From the NCBI GenBank assembly GCA_016781505.1, contig JADDQF010000127.1, positions 1 to 39,619 on the forward strand: a stretch of 39,619 nt of DNA, written 5' to 3'. The notes under the pieces are model-generated. The model saw nothing but the letters and a program-made list of their open reading frames with translations, was not told the DNA's origin and did no database searches. A program made the position numbers and the translations under genes. This document shows, piece after piece, positions 3,594 to 39,619 of this stretch. This stretch comes from a bacterium (GTDB taxonomy: Bacteria; Chloroflexota; Chloroflexia; Chloroflexales; Kallotenuaceae). Within the stretch, counting starts at the first letter, position 1; the number at the start of each line of letters is the position of its first letter.

Positions 3594-3668
3594 CCGACGT
3601 ACGGATGACTGGCGTCAAACGTGGAGAACCACGAGGAAGTCCGTACATTACGAGCCGTTCGCCTGGGC
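3594..3668 (+). ncRNA. ZTP (pfl) riboswitch aptamer
   Basis: The sequence matches the pfl/ZTP riboswitch plan. P1 is GTACGGA (3599-3605) with TCCGTAC (3640-3646). The conserved internal loop GACTGGCG lies at 3607-3614. P2 is CGTGG-AGAA-CCACG (3620-3633), followed by AGGAAG. After a short linker comes the P3 element GCCGTTCGCCTGGGC (3654-3668). GGCG (3611-3614) can pair with CGCC (3660-3663) to form the diagnostic pseudoknot. The class senses ZTP/ZMP, the AICAR intermediates that build up when 10-formyl-tetrahydrofolate is short. It lies directly upstream of purH, whose product consumes ZMP. In known members the ligand turns expression on by blocking a terminator. Confidence 0.92.
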
Positions 3669-3670
3669 TA

Positions 3671-3699
3671 GGTTCCGAACAGTGATTCGGGGCCTTTTT
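3671..3699 (+). terminator. Riboswitch expression-platform terminator
   Basis: GGTTCCGAA (3671-3679) pairs with TTCGGGGCC (3686-3694) over a 6-nt loop, nine base pairs including two G-U, followed by TTTTT. It stands 3 nt after the ZTP aptamer and 20 nt before the purH ATG, so it is the expression platform. An alternative pairing, GTTCG (3657-3661) with CGAAC (3676-3680), overlaps both aptamer P3 and the terminator arm and may take part in switching. Confidence 0.88.
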
Positions 3700-3719
3700 C
3701 ATTGGCGGAAGAAGGCGTT

Positions 3720-5240
3720 ATGCGGGCAATCATCAGCGTATCGAACAAAACAGGCGTAGCTGAGCTGGGTCATGCGCTCCAGGCACGAGGTGTTGAAATT
3801 TTTTCGACCGGGGGCACGCTCACAGCGTTGCTCCAAGCGCGTGTAACTGCTCAGTCGGTCAGCAAGCTCACCAATTTTCCAGAAATCCTGGCAGGTCGGG
3901 TCAAGACCCTACATCCAGCGGTGCATGGCGGTATTCTGCATCGCCGTGACCGACCGGACGACGTGGCGCAGCTTGCGGCTCATGGTCTGGCGGCCATCGA
4001 CCTTGTGATCGTCAACCTGTACCCGTTCCGCGAAACAATCGCGCAGCCGGGGGTGCAGCTCGCGGATGCGCTCGAACAGATCGATATTGGCGGGCCGACG
4101 ATGCTGCGCGCGGCTGCTAAGAACTTTCCGGATGTGCTGGTCGTCGTCGATCCCCAGGATTATCTCCGTTTGCTCGCTGCTTTGGAAGAGGGCGCTGTTT
4201 CGCCCGAATTTCGACGCGAGCTGGCAGCCAAAGCTTTTGCCCACACTGCAGCATACGACAGCGCTATTGCGGCCTACCTGACCGCCGAGCAATTTCCCGC
4301 AACGCTGCCGCTCGCTTTTGAGAAAGCCCAAGACCTGCGCTACGGCGAGAATCCGCATCAGCCCGCCGCTTTTTACCGTGATGCTAGTGCTGCGGGCGGT
4401 TCCATTGCCGCCGCGCGTCAGCTGCAGGGCAAGGAGCTTTCGTTTAACAACTTGCTGGACGCCGATGCCGCGCTCCAGATCATCCAGAACTTCCCAAGTC
4501 CAACCGTCGCCATCTTGAAACATTCCAACCCGTGCGGCCTCGCCTCCAACGACGACCTGGTAGCAGCACACGCTGCTGCACGGTCGGGCGATCCGGTCTC
4601 GGCCTTCGGCGGGATCGTCGGCATCAATCGGCCGGTCGATGGGCGGATGGCCGCGGCAATGCAGCGTTTCTTCTACGAGGTGATCATCGCGCCGGCATTC
4701 GACGACGAAGCCCGATCCATCTTAGCGGCCAAGCCTAACCTACGCCTGCTGGAGCTCGATTTGATCCAGCAATCCGCGCAGGCGTGGGATTATCGCCGGG
4801 TGAGCGGAGGACTGCTGGTCCAGGCGCAAGATCGCGTGGCCGACGACGATCCGGCTGGCTGGCAGGTTGTTTCGGAACGGAAGCCGACCGACGAGCAGCT
4901 GGCAGCACTCGCGTTTGGGTGGCGCGCCTGTGCCTTTGTGAAGTCGAACGCGATCGTGCTGGTGCAGGGCCAAACGCTGGTGGGCATGGGTGCCGGCCAG
5001 CCTTCACGCGTCGATTCGGTGCATATTGCCGTGCGCAAAGCCGGGGAACGCGCCCAAGGCAGCGTGCTGGCCTCGGATGCGTTCTTTCCCAAGCCGGATG
5101 GCGTAGAAGCAGCGGCCGCCGCCGGCGTTGCGGCGATCGTGCAGCCCGGTGGCTCACAGGCCGACGACGAAGTGCTGGCAACGGCGAACCGGCTGGGCCT
5201 GGTACTGCTGCTGACCGGCCGACGACATTTTCGACACTAG
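3720..5240 (+). CDS. purH: Bifunctional AICAR transformylase/IMP cyclohydrolase
   Basis: A 506-residue enzyme catalysing the last two steps of de novo purine synthesis: formyl transfer from 10-formyl-THF to AICAR, then cyclisation to IMP. The N-terminal MGS-like cyclohydrolase domain (about 1-150) carries SNKTGV, STGGT and GRVKTLHPAVHGGIL. The transformylase domain follows with RYGENPHQPAAFY, SFNNLLDADAAL, KHSNPCGLA (catalytic Lys/His region) and AFGGIVGIN. Length is close to the usual 510-530. I chose ATG 3720 because GGAAGAAGG ends 5 bp before it; the in-frame TTG at 3702 would sit too close to the terminator. Expression is expected to be governed by the ZTP riboswitch immediately upstream. 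Confidence 0.96.
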   Translation: MRAIISVSNKTGVAELGHALQARGVEIFSTGGTLTALLQARVTAQSVSKLTNFPEILAGRVKTLHPAVHGGILHRRDRPDDVAQLAAHGLAAIDLVIVNLYPFRETIAQPGVQLADALEQIDIGGPTMLRAAAKNFPDVLVVVDPQDYLRLLAALEEGAVSPEFRRELAAKAFAHTAAYDSAIAAYLTAEQFPATLPLAFEKAQDLRYGENPHQPAAFYRDASAAGGSIAAARQLQGKELSFNNLLDADAALQIIQNFPSPTVAILKHSNPCGLASNDDLVAAHAAARSGDPVSAFGGIVGINRPVDGRMAAAMQRFFYEVIIAPAFDDEARSILAAKPNLRLLELDLIQQSAQAWDYRRVSGGLLVQAQDRVADDDPAGWQVVSERKPTDEQLAALAFGWRACAFVKSNAIVLVQGQTLVGMGAGQPSRVDSVHIAVRKAGERAQGSVLASDAFFPKPDGVEAAAAAGVAAIVQPGGSQADDEVLATANRLGLVLLLTGRRHFRH

Positions 5241-36599: not shown

Positions 36600-37022
36600 A
36601 TGGAGCGTAAAATACGGGTGCTTGTCGCGAAGCCAGGGCTCGATGGGCACGACCGCGGCGCAAAAGTGATTGCGCGGGCGCTGCGCGACGCGGGCATGGA
36701 AGTTGTGTACACCGGCCTGCAACAAACACCTCAAATGATCGTGGACGCCGCCCTGCAAGAGGATGTCGATGTGATCGGGCTGTCAATCCTGTCGGGCGCA
36801 CACATGACACTGCTGCCTAAAGTGATGCAGCTGCTCAACGCTGCGGGCGCTGCCGATGTGCTGGTCGTGGCCGGCGGCATTATCTCGGACGCCGACGCCG
36901 AAATTCTGCGGCGGGAACACGGCATTGCGGCCGTGTACGGGCCGGGCGCGTCCACCAACGCTATCGTCGAGTTTATTCGTGCCAACGTTAAGCCCGAGCG
37001 CTTTTCAGGCGCGGAAGTGTGA
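36600..37022 (+). CDS. Cobalamin-binding subunit of an acyl-CoA mutase
   Basis: A 140-residue stand-alone B12-binding domain. The base-off/His-on motif DxHxxG is DGHDRG (about residues 15-20), followed by [14 protein letters not shown] (SxL motif) and VVAGGII (GG motif). It matches the C-terminal domain of methylmalonyl-CoA mutase, encoded apart from the large subunit as in archaea and many Chloroflexota. The large catalytic subunit is not in the window. It lies 7 bp upstream of meaB, so they form a functional pair. SD is AAGGA, 10 bp before ATG 36600. Confidence 0.93.
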
Positions 37023-37029
37023 GCGCGGC

Positions 37030-37983
37030 GTGGGGTTAGTCGATCAGATGCAGGCAGGCGACCGACGCGCACTGTCGCGGCTCGTCTCCATCGTTGAGAA
37101 CGGCGGCGAAGACAGCCGCCGGGCGCTGGCAAAGCTGTACCAGTACACGGGCCGGGCGCAGATCATCGGCGTGACGGGACCACCCGGCGCTGGCAAAAGC
37201 ACGCTGGTGAACGAGCTCGCGCTTGAGTTTCGCCGCCGTGATACCACCGTCGGCATCTTAGCCGTCGATCCGACGTCACCATATAGCGGCGGCGCGATTT
37301 TGGGCGACCGCATCCGCATGCAGCCGCTCGGCCACGATCCCAGCATCTTTGTCCGGTCGATGGCCAGCCGGGGCCAGCTCGGGGGCATCGCCCGCGCGAC
37401 CGGCGATGTGGTCAAGGTGCTGGACGCCGCCGGCTTTAACAAGATCATCGTTGAAACGATTGGGGCCGGCCAGGCCGAGGTTGAGATTGCGCGCGAAGCA
37501 CATACCACCGTGGTCGTCGAAGTGCCCGGACTGGGCGACGATGTGCAGGCGATCAAGGCGGGCATTTTGGAAATCGCAGATGTGTTTGTGGTCAACAAAG
37601 CTGATCGCGAAGACGCCCAAAAGACGCAGCGCCATCTGCAGGCGATGATGCAGCTGGGCGGCGCGCCCCGCGAAGATTGGCCCGTCCCGATTGTGATGAC
37701 CGTGGCCACCAAAGCCCAGGGCATCGAAGCCGTCGTTGATGCAATTGAAAGCCATCTGTCACACCTCCAAACAACCGGGCATTTCGTTGAGCGCGAGCGC
37801 CAGCGCGTTGAGCGCGAGTTTCGGTCGATCTTGCAAGGACTTGCGCTCGACCTGGTGCAGGAACGGGTAGGGCCCGAGCAGCGCGCTGCCGTTGTTGCAC
37901 GCATTCAAGCGCGGCAGGTCGATCCGTACACTGCCGCGGAAAGGATGCTTGCCGACGCGCTTGGTGTGGCCGAGCTTAAGTAG
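37030..37983 (+). CDS. meaB: MeaB/ArgK-type GTPase chaperone of B12 mutase
   Basis: A 317-residue G3E-family P-loop GTPase that protects and reloads acyl-CoA mutases with adenosylcobalamin. It has GVTGPPGAGKST (P-loop), LAVDPTSPYSGGAILGDRIRM, VRSMASRGQLGG, ETIGAGQAE (switch region), and NKAD (G4). The C-terminal helix region of about 60 residues is the dimerisation arm. I chose GTG 37030, 7 bp after the preceding stop; ATG at 37048 is a shorter option. An upstream in-frame extension overlaps the mutase gene and is not used. Confidence 0.95.
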   Translation: MGLVDQMQAGDRRALSRLVSIVENGGEDSRRALAKLYQYTGRAQIIGVTGPPGAGKSTLVNELALEFRRRDTTVGILAVDPTSPYSGGAILGDRIRMQPLGHDPSIFVRSMASRGQLGGIARATGDVVKVLDAAGFNKIIVETIGAGQAEVEIAREAHTTVVVEVPGLGDDVQAIKAGILEIADVFVVNKADREDAQKTQRHLQAMMQLGGAPREDWPVPIVMTVATKAQGIEAVVDAIESHLSHLQTTGHFVERERQRVEREFRSILQGLALDLVQERVGPEQRAAVVARIQARQVDPYTAAERMLADALGVAELK

Positions 37984-37989
37984 TGCAAG

Positions 37990-38022
37990 ATGGGCTGCGT
38001 ACCGCTACGCGGCCCATTCTTG
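37990..38022 (+). terminator. Intrinsic terminator after meaB
   Basis: ATGGGCTGCGTA (37990-38001) pairs with TACGCGGCCCAT (38006-38017), 12 bp with one G-U and a CCGC loop. TCTTGTTTG follows. It lies 7 bp after the meaB stop. Confidence 0.7.
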
Positions 38023-38243
38023 TTTGGGGGATACGTCGGGCAGCCGCCGGAGCAAAGATGCTGGTTCCTGTGGCACTACTATCTGCCGTATCCCAGCGCA
38101 CTCAGATCGAACATAACAACAAGGAGGTTTCCGCTTCATTTCACTATCCTTGCACGCTGCGGCGCGACAATCCCCCATCCGCGCCGTTGCGCATCAGGTA
38201 TGTGCGTTTCTGTCCCTACTCAACGTAGATCTGGAGGACGAAC
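38023..38243 (+). other. Leader/spacer before the EF-G paralogue
   Basis: No gene is supported here. An AAGGAGGTTT run (38120-38129) has the form of a strong Shine-Dalgarno but no ATG, GTG or TTG stands at usable distance; it lies about 115 bp before the EF-G-like start. The near start-proximal site GGAGG (38233-38237) serves the next gene. Confidence 0.5.
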
Positions 38244-39619
38244 ATGAAGCCCTACGGCCCTGAGCACATCCACAACGTCGGCATCTTTGGTCATGCAGGG
38301 TGCGGCAAAACCACGCTGGTTGAAGCCCTGCTGTACACCGCTCATGTGACCACTCGGCTTGGCCGGGTTGAAGACGGCAACACGGTATCAGACTACGACC
38401 CCGACGAGAAGGAGCGACGCCAGTCGATCAACCTCAGCGTCGCGCCCCTGGAATGGAAAGACCAGAAGATCAACCTGATCGACTGTCCCGGCTCGGCGGA
38501 TTATGCTTCCGAAGTTGCCGCGGCGATGCGTGTGATTGACGGTGCGATTATCGTCATGGACGCATCTGCGGGCGTGGAGGTCGGCACTGAGCTGGTGTGG
38601 CAGGCGGCCAAGGCAGCCAATGTTCCCGTCCTGATCTTTGTCAACAAGATGGAGCGTGAAAACGCCGACTTTGACCAGACGGTAGCGCAAGCGCAGGAGA
38701 TGTTGAGCGATGCTGTGGTGCCGATGCAGATGCCGATTGGCAGCCAGAAGGATTTTCGGGGCATTATTTCGCTCCGCCGCCAGCGCGCCTGGCTGCTCAG
38801 CTCCAAGCGGGACGGATCGTACGAAGAAGCGGATATTCCAGCTGAATACGCCGACCGCGAACAGACGATGCGCGAGGTCGTGATCGACAAGATCGCCGTC
38901 ACCAACGACGATTTGATCGAAAAGTATTTGGAGGGCGGGGCGGACGCACTCTCTATGGACGAGCTCCGCGACGGTATGCGCGCAGGCATCGCCAACAACT
39001 CCATCGTGCCGGTGTATGTCGGCTCGGCGACCGCCATGTCGGGGCTAGCCCAGCTGCTGGATGCTATTTTGGACGCTATTCCCTCGGCTGCGCGCAAAAT
39101 CGCCAACGCCACCGATCTGCTCCACAACCAGCCGATCCAGATCCACCCCAGCTATAACGAGCCATTGGCCGCCCTGGTTTTCAAAACGATGGTCGACCCG
39201 CATGTCGGCAAGCTCAGCTATGTTCGCGTCTATGCGGGCCAGATGCACTCCAACTCCAACGTGCTCAACAGTCGTACGCGCAAGGAAGAGCGCATCGGGC
39301 AGCTCTACAGCATCAAGGGAAAGGAACAGTCGCCGATCCATAATGTCGGTCCCGGCGATATTTGTGCGGTTATCAAGCTGACAGAAACGATCAGCGGCGA
39401 TACGCTGTGCTCGCCGGATCGGCCGGTGCAACTGCGCGGCATTGCCTATCCGGCGCCTGCCTTTACCGGCGGCGTCAAGCCGCATTCGCGCGCCGACCTG
39501 GACAAAATGGGCACGACGCTGCATCGTGTGATGGAGGAAGACCCGTCGTTGCAGATCAGCCGCGATCCGGTCACGGGCGAAACGTTGCTCAGCGGCATCA
39601 GCGAGACCCACCTCCAAAA
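38244..39619 (+). CDS. EF-G2-type translation GTPase paralogue (partial)
   Basis: The first 458 codons of an elongation-factor-G-like GTPase; the gene runs off the window. ATG 38244 has GGAGG 6 bp upstream. It has the P-loop GHAGCGKT (16-23), a G domain to about 280, and domain II at about 300-380 (PLAALVFKTMVDPHVGKLSYV). It is not canonical EF-G: switch I reads RRQSINLSVAPLEW in place of RGITI, the DTPGH motif is DCPGS (80-84) so the catalytic His is Ser, and the G4 motif NKMD is NKME (134-137). The closest known type is the EF-G2/FusA2 group of Thermus and actinobacteria, whose role is unclear. It is not the housekeeping fusA. Confidence 0.9.
   Translation, partial: MKPYGPEHIHNVGIFGHAGCGKTTLVEALLYTAHVTTRLGRVEDGNTVSDYDPDEKERRQSINLSVAPLEWKDQKINLIDCPGSADYASEVAAAMRVIDGAIIVMDASAGVEVGTELVWQAAKAANVPVLIFVNKMERENADFDQTVAQAQEMLSDAVVPMQMPIGSQKDFRGIISLRRQRAWLLSSKRDGSYEEADIPAEYADREQTMREVVIDKIAVTNDDLIEKYLEGGADALSMDELRDGMRAGIANNSIVPVYVGSATAMSGLAQLLDAILDAIPSAARKIANATDLLHNQPIQIHPSYNEPLAALVFKTMVDPHVGKLSYVRVYAGQMHSNSNVLNSRTRKEERIGQLYSIKGKEQSPIHNVGPGDICAVIKLTETISGDTLCSPDRPVQLRGIAYPAPAFTGGVKPHSRADLDKMGTTLHRVMEEDPSLQISRDPVTGETLLSGISETHLQ

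Follow-up and report, generated by a model that had tools for sequence, protein, structure and literature searches.

Described EF-G2 proteins

Within the EFG II (EF-G2/FusA2) subfamily, a Chloroflexi sub-subgroup has been described with the switch I motif r/kxxSI, Ser at the switch I Thr position being the EFG II state, and NKxD at G4 has been given as conserved in EFG II (Margus 2011, PMC3150367). Loss of the P-loop Asp in EFGII has also been recorded before (Atkinson 2015, PMC4342817); in other translational GTPases, this Asp and the switch I Gly bind a monovalent cation.

Three EFG II proteins have been studied. Bacteroides thetaiotaomicron EF-G2 (FusA2, BT2167) is reported to perform translocation without GTP hydrolysis, its GTPase activity being reported missing (Han 2023, as cited in PMC12775393 and PMC10294740). 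Carbon limitation induces its mRNA 238-fold (PMC12775393, PMC10294740, PMC6989115). Thermus thermophilus EF-G-2 lacks the switch II His and is nevertheless credited with GTP hydrolysis and poly(Phe) synthesis (Connell 2007, as relayed in PMC3150367 and PMC9067457). Mycobacterium smegmatis EF-G2 is stated to bind nucleotide and to lack ribosome-dependent GTPase activity (Seshadri 2009, as cited in PMC3150367; PMC9067457), and has been described as incapable of elongation or recycling (PMC9067457). In canonical Escherichia coli EF-G, the His is needed for ribosome-stimulated hydrolysis and more so for Pi release, to a degree that varies with the substitution; the H91Q variant hydrolyses GTP in a wild-type-like manner, its larger defect lying in Pi release (PMC4532990). 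In mitochondrial EF-G2, a recycling-only factor, one of the two translocation-essential glycines of domain IV loop 1 is lost (PMC9067457).

The EF-G2 gene at the end of the window

The window—the whole stretch of 39,619 nucleotides analysed here, from a Chloroflexota genome—ends inside a gene for a protein of this subfamily. Its features are as follows.

38230..38243, + strand: ribosome-binding site region, TGGAGGACGAAC, ahead of the ATG
38244..39617, + strand: EFG II (EF-G2) coding sequence, residues 1–458, with domains G, II, and most of III; remainder past the window
38289..38315, + strand: G1/P-loop, GHAGCGKTT, with Gly16; Gly replaces the monovalent-cation Asp of HIDAGKT, and the EFG II-type Leu25 comes next
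38415..38429, + strand: G2/switch I, RRQSI, aligning to RGITI; Thr to Ser at residue 61
38481..38495, + strand: G3/switch II, DCPGS, with Ser84 at the catalytic His position
38643..38654, + strand: G4, NKME, with Glu137 (GAG); Asp (GAT) in close relatives

The frame opens with ATG at 38244, is preceded by a GGAGG ribosome-binding site (GGAGGACGAAC), and stays open for 458 codons up to the window end, with EF-G domains G, II, and III found by domain scan; a GGAG- or GGAGG-type site likewise stands 5′ of the ATG in four EF-G2 family members. The gene is cut at the window edge only because the scaffold carries 116 N there: the contig continues past the window with these 116 N (L005, 2856–2971), the same 39 bases repeated, and then the remaining EF-G2 frame, which resumes as NIADRMRRKFG.... 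The gap was taken as a scaffolding artefact, as supported by the 39-bp overlap and by an alignment with relatives that runs without gaps, and on that presumption the joined protein is about 699 aa long; intact EF-G2 relatives have 699–703 aa. To an automatic gene caller, the gap with its identical 39-bp flanks makes the gene appear broken. A frameshift at the window end was considered and rejected, since the C-terminal nonsense in two of the retrieved sequences (L005 and L009) is a product of the gap and its repeat.

The dN/dS was about 0.035 against a sister of 92% identity, with dS near saturation, and ranged from about 0.035 to 0.16 over comparisons. The open frame, the full-length relatives, and these low ratios rule out a pseudogene and speak against the decayed-gene alternative that the preliminary description had kept in view: the gene is real, intact, conserved, and under purifying selection.

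Assignment to EFG II

As judged by its diagnostic residues, NCBIfam model, and tree position, the protein is an ordinary, widely conserved Chloroflexota member of the known EFG II subfamily, an accessory EF-G paralogue. The best NCBIfam model, NF009381 (PRK12740; cut-off 583 bits), scored 508 bits on the partial window protein and 866 bits on the 92% identical full-length sister (L010). All six type I residues of EFG II (Gly16, Leu25, Ser61, Thr291, Gly333, and Lys352 in the 1WDT numbering of Margus 2011) are present, as G16, L25, S61, T315, G359, and K378. Of the seven type II residues in the same list (D216, V250, L264, K471, K472, E513, and G603), six are present, the four beyond residue 458 having been read from the sequence 3′ of the N gap; the exception is D216, here N221, and Asn also occupies this position in 36/108 Chloroflexota EFG IIs. 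In a FastTree phylogeny of 132 proteins, EFG II and EFG I were separated by a single split with 100% local support.

The genome's own canonical EF-G (contig C105) is 40% identical to the EF-G2 protein over 692 columns and shares with it the order of domains and the translocase motifs of domain IV. Coexistence of the two is usual: an EF-G2-type paralogue stands beside canonical EF-G in most of the 41 genomes of the order, two EF-G-type matches per genome were usual among 300 Chloroflexota genomes, and EFG II is kept alongside canonical EF-G (EFG I) through most of the phylum. In genus g5 of the same order, with genomes of approximately 3 Mb (G007, G028, G033, G035, G037, and G039), only one strong EF-G-type match was observed, with scores of canonical EF-G and no more than a fragment in G028; EFG II seems to have been lost there. 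The match to the Chloroflexi sub-subgroup of Margus 2011 (PMC3150367) thus covers the loss of RGITI, Ser61, the type I and type II residues, the coexistence with EFG I, and the phylum-wide occurrence, the differences being NKME in place of NKxD and Asn in place of the type II Asp216.

The predicted structure has an EF-G fold (mean pLDDT 83), with the G domain ordered except for switch I, and Foldseek matched the model to EF-Gs, to ribosome-bound Bacteroides EF-G2, and to M. smegmatis EF-G2. A tetracycline ribosomal protection protein of the TetM/O type was also considered and rejected: tet_protect scored 241 bits on the window protein and 341 bits on the full-length sister, against a cut-off of 775.

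Motifs of the G domain

Alignment with the genome's own canonical EF-G set HAGCGKT, RRQSI, DCPGS, and NKME of the EF-G2 protein against HIDAGKT, RGITI, DTPGH, and NKMD; the EF-G2 protein does not have the canonical EFG I signature (HIDAGKT, RGITI, and DTPGH with the switch II His). It retains G1, DxPG, NKx, and the GSA of G5. The preliminary description had correctly read Ser for His in DCPGS and Glu for Asp in NKME, but its pairing of RGITI with RQSIN was one residue off: within the context ...ERRQSIN..., the alignment puts R-G-I-T-I over R-R-Q-S-I. In the corrected register, and judged from sequence, the replacement of the Mg-binding Thr of switch I by Ser is a conservative change. The change from HIDAGKT to HAGCGKT in the P-loop, with loss of Asp, had been overlooked.

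Comparison with the three studied EFG II proteins, whose switch residues were read from deposited PDB chains, showed the same pattern with different details. B. thetaiotaomicron EF-G2 (PDB 8dmf, 7uvp) shares the EFG II fold, an identical DCPGS, a switch I Ser, and a P-loop without the HIDAGKT Asp, but differs in switch I (EYGYSV), G4 (NQLD), and P-loop (GSSGSGKT). T. thermophilus EF-G-2 (PDB 1wdt, 2dy1), 36% identical, shares the EFG II residues, the missing switch II His, and the P-loop Gly, but has DAPGY (Tyr) and TKLD and keeps the switch I Thr. M. smegmatis EF-G2 (PDB 9k0z, 9k10) is likewise an EFG II protein without the switch II His and with a switch I Ser (QQRSV), and differs in DTPGY, TKLD, and the P-loop GPSGGGKT. 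Chain A of PDB 7uvp is named 'Tetracycline resistance protein TetQ', yet its sequence is that of 8dmf, the ribosome-bound B. thetaiotaomicron EF-G2.

Loss of the switch II histidine across the family

In samples from Chloroflexota, Clostridia-class bacteria, and Acidobacteriota, the switch II His was found in 0/163 EFG II and 28/28 EFG I proteins. Among 108 Chloroflexota EFG IIs, the position holds Tyr in 76, Phe in 18, Ser in 6, Ala in 5, Asp in 3, and His in none, as opposed to His in 23/23 Chloroflexota EFG Is. The Clostridia-class EFG II sample has Tyr in 30/30, and the Acidobacteriota sample, with 7 of its 25 sequences classed as EFG II by the diagnostic Lys378, has His in 0/25, with all five EFG I controls having His. 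The P-loop Asp is missing from almost all sampled EFG IIs. The loss of the His maps to one event on the tree, and as read from these sequences, its absence is a family-wide rule of EFG II that goes back to a single ancient loss.

The preliminary description had allowed that relatives might retain both His and Asp, and the two residues part company here: the His is missing from every sampled EFG II, while the G4 Asp is kept by close relatives, apart from one Cys. The conservation that it asked about across Chloroflexota holds for the absence of His (0/108), but not for Ser (6/108) or Glu (5/108) themselves.

Variation at G4

No close relative shares the G4 Glu, which is encoded here by GAG in place of GAT and is the one trait peculiar to this genome. 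In samples chosen without reference to the pattern FVNKMERE, Glu was found in 5/108 Chloroflexota EFG IIs—as five separate changes on the tree, four of them in other lineages—in 12/30 Clostridia-class EFG IIs, and in 1/25 Acidobacteriota. A contig scan with that pattern is Glu-rich by design, and its members were left out of the counts. Independent changes of G4 Asp to Glu were observed in EFG IIs of several phyla (L054, L057, L073, L081, L149–L158, and L182). Other non-canonical G4 forms in EFG II include NR, SK, TK, and GK. Taken alone, the difference between EFG II (Glu in 18/163) and EFG I (0/28) is not significant (p = 0.08).

Thus, the NKxD given as conserved in EFG II is not found in the EF-G2 protein (NKME), and G4 is variable across EFG II at large; being common to EFG I and EFG II, NKxD has no discriminating value between them. 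Because Glu recurs and further non-canonical forms exist, the most probable reading of the Glu is a substitution tolerated by a motif relaxed within EFG II. In this draft genome, the GAG could also be an artefact of sequencing or assembly. Such an artefact would concern the Glu alone, be compatible with any reading of the protein's function, and fit the GAG being limited to this genome while the nearest relatives have Asp (GAT); the recurrence of Glu in four other Chloroflexota lineages and in the Clostridia-class and Acidobacteriota samples, and its presence in several more phyla in the pattern-biased set, make such an error unlikely.

Genomic surroundings

On the 5′ side of the EF-G2 gene lie genes named from their translations as an apparent B12-binding methylmalonyl-CoA mutase subunit and then MeaB (window 36600–38244). 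The order B12-binding subunit–meaB–EF-G2 is kept in the four family relatives with enough contig to show gene order (G002, G003, G004, and G005; L139, L140, L142, and L143), but was not found in G010, from another family of the same order. One further feature lies between meaB and the EF-G2 gene.

37989..38018, + strand: intrinsic-terminator-like hairpin, directly 3′ of meaB

With this hairpin directly after meaB, transcription of the EF-G2 gene in this genome probably starts from a promoter of its own. A comparable GC hairpin stands 3′ of meaB in 3/4 relatives, and the gap between meaB and EF-G2 varies from 45 to 610 bp across the four; given the hairpin and this variation, an operon with meaB is unsupported. 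Elsewhere in the window, a ZMP/ZTP riboswitch (3595–3675, + strand; Rfam RF01750, 60.3 bits) lies immediately 5′ of an apparent purH open reading frame (3702–5240), an ordinary layout for purine control.

Domain IV and probable function

Loop 1 of domain IV reads QTGGAGQ in the EF-G2 protein: both glycines are kept, and the mitochondrial-type loss of one of them was not found. The His of the H-VDS motif is also kept, and the EFG II lysines are present. With nucleotide turnover, translocation, and physiological role inferred from the studied relatives, we consider, at a probability of approximately 0.6, that the best explanation of the whole is an accessory translocase that turns GTP over slowly or not at all and perhaps serves under energy limitation. 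The protein would bind GTP and the ribosome, and its intact domain IV would drive tRNA–mRNA translocation; with the His of switch II and the cation-binding Asp of the P-loop both gone, GTP hydrolysis would be slow or nil. Such a protein would be a low-GTP-cost stand-in for EF-G during starvation or slow growth, a role that may be suggested by analogy with Bacteroides EF-G2.

The earlier proposal of a slow or altered GTPase thus stays plausible on other grounds—the missing His and P-loop Asp, and a DCPGS like that of Bacteroides EF-G2—while its switch I argument falls with the misregister, and the Glu at G4, although present, is not a fixed family trait, with close relatives having Asp or, in one case, Cys. 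The accompanying suggestion of a rescue, recycling, or dormancy factor found no specific support, the translocase features of domain IV being kept.

Loss of the His is insufficient proof of a slow GTPase, because T. thermophilus EF-G-2 hydrolyses GTP without it. It is conceivable, though less likely, that the protein has kept GTP hydrolysis on the ribosome, the part of the His being taken by a different residue or by rRNA, and acts as a slower backup EF-G. The Thermus protein, with DAPGY, is reported to be both an active GTPase and a translocase (as given in PMC3150367 and PMC9067457), and the retained G1, DxPG, NKx, and GSA elements would suit such an activity; however, the EF-G2 protein has, in common with the Bacteroides EF-G2 reported to lack GTPase activity, a Ser and not a Tyr, and the G4 Asp is changed as well. 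At the other extreme, an EFG II translocase fully independent of GTP hydrolysis might have arisen in this Chloroflexota family by convergence with Bacteroides EF-G2 through the Ser, with the G4 Glu, here and in its recurrences across phyla, weakening or changing guanine-nucleotide recognition and binding energy alone driving movement, which we regard as improbable.

EF-G paralogues are known to divide elongation and recycling among themselves (PMC9067457), and the protein could in principle be a partner of RRF dedicated to recycling or rescue, in the manner of mitochondrial or Borrelia EF-G2. Yet this seems highly unlikely, since mitochondrial EF-G2 has lost a loop 1 glycine, whereas the protein here retains the GG pair together with the His of domain IV, and EFG II has extra loop 1 lysines. 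Moreover, Borrelia EF-G2 falls in another described subfamily, spdEFG.

What is new relative to the literature is that G4 of EFG II is not strictly NKxD and that Glu arises there repeatedly, the remainder being a known family. Opinion is still divided on whether translocation requires GTP hydrolysis, a question for which EFG II proteins serve as natural experiments. Because Ser for His is combined here with an altered guanine-binding motif, the EF-G2 protein and its 92% identical, Asp-bearing sister are a ready pair for tests of nucleotide dependence.
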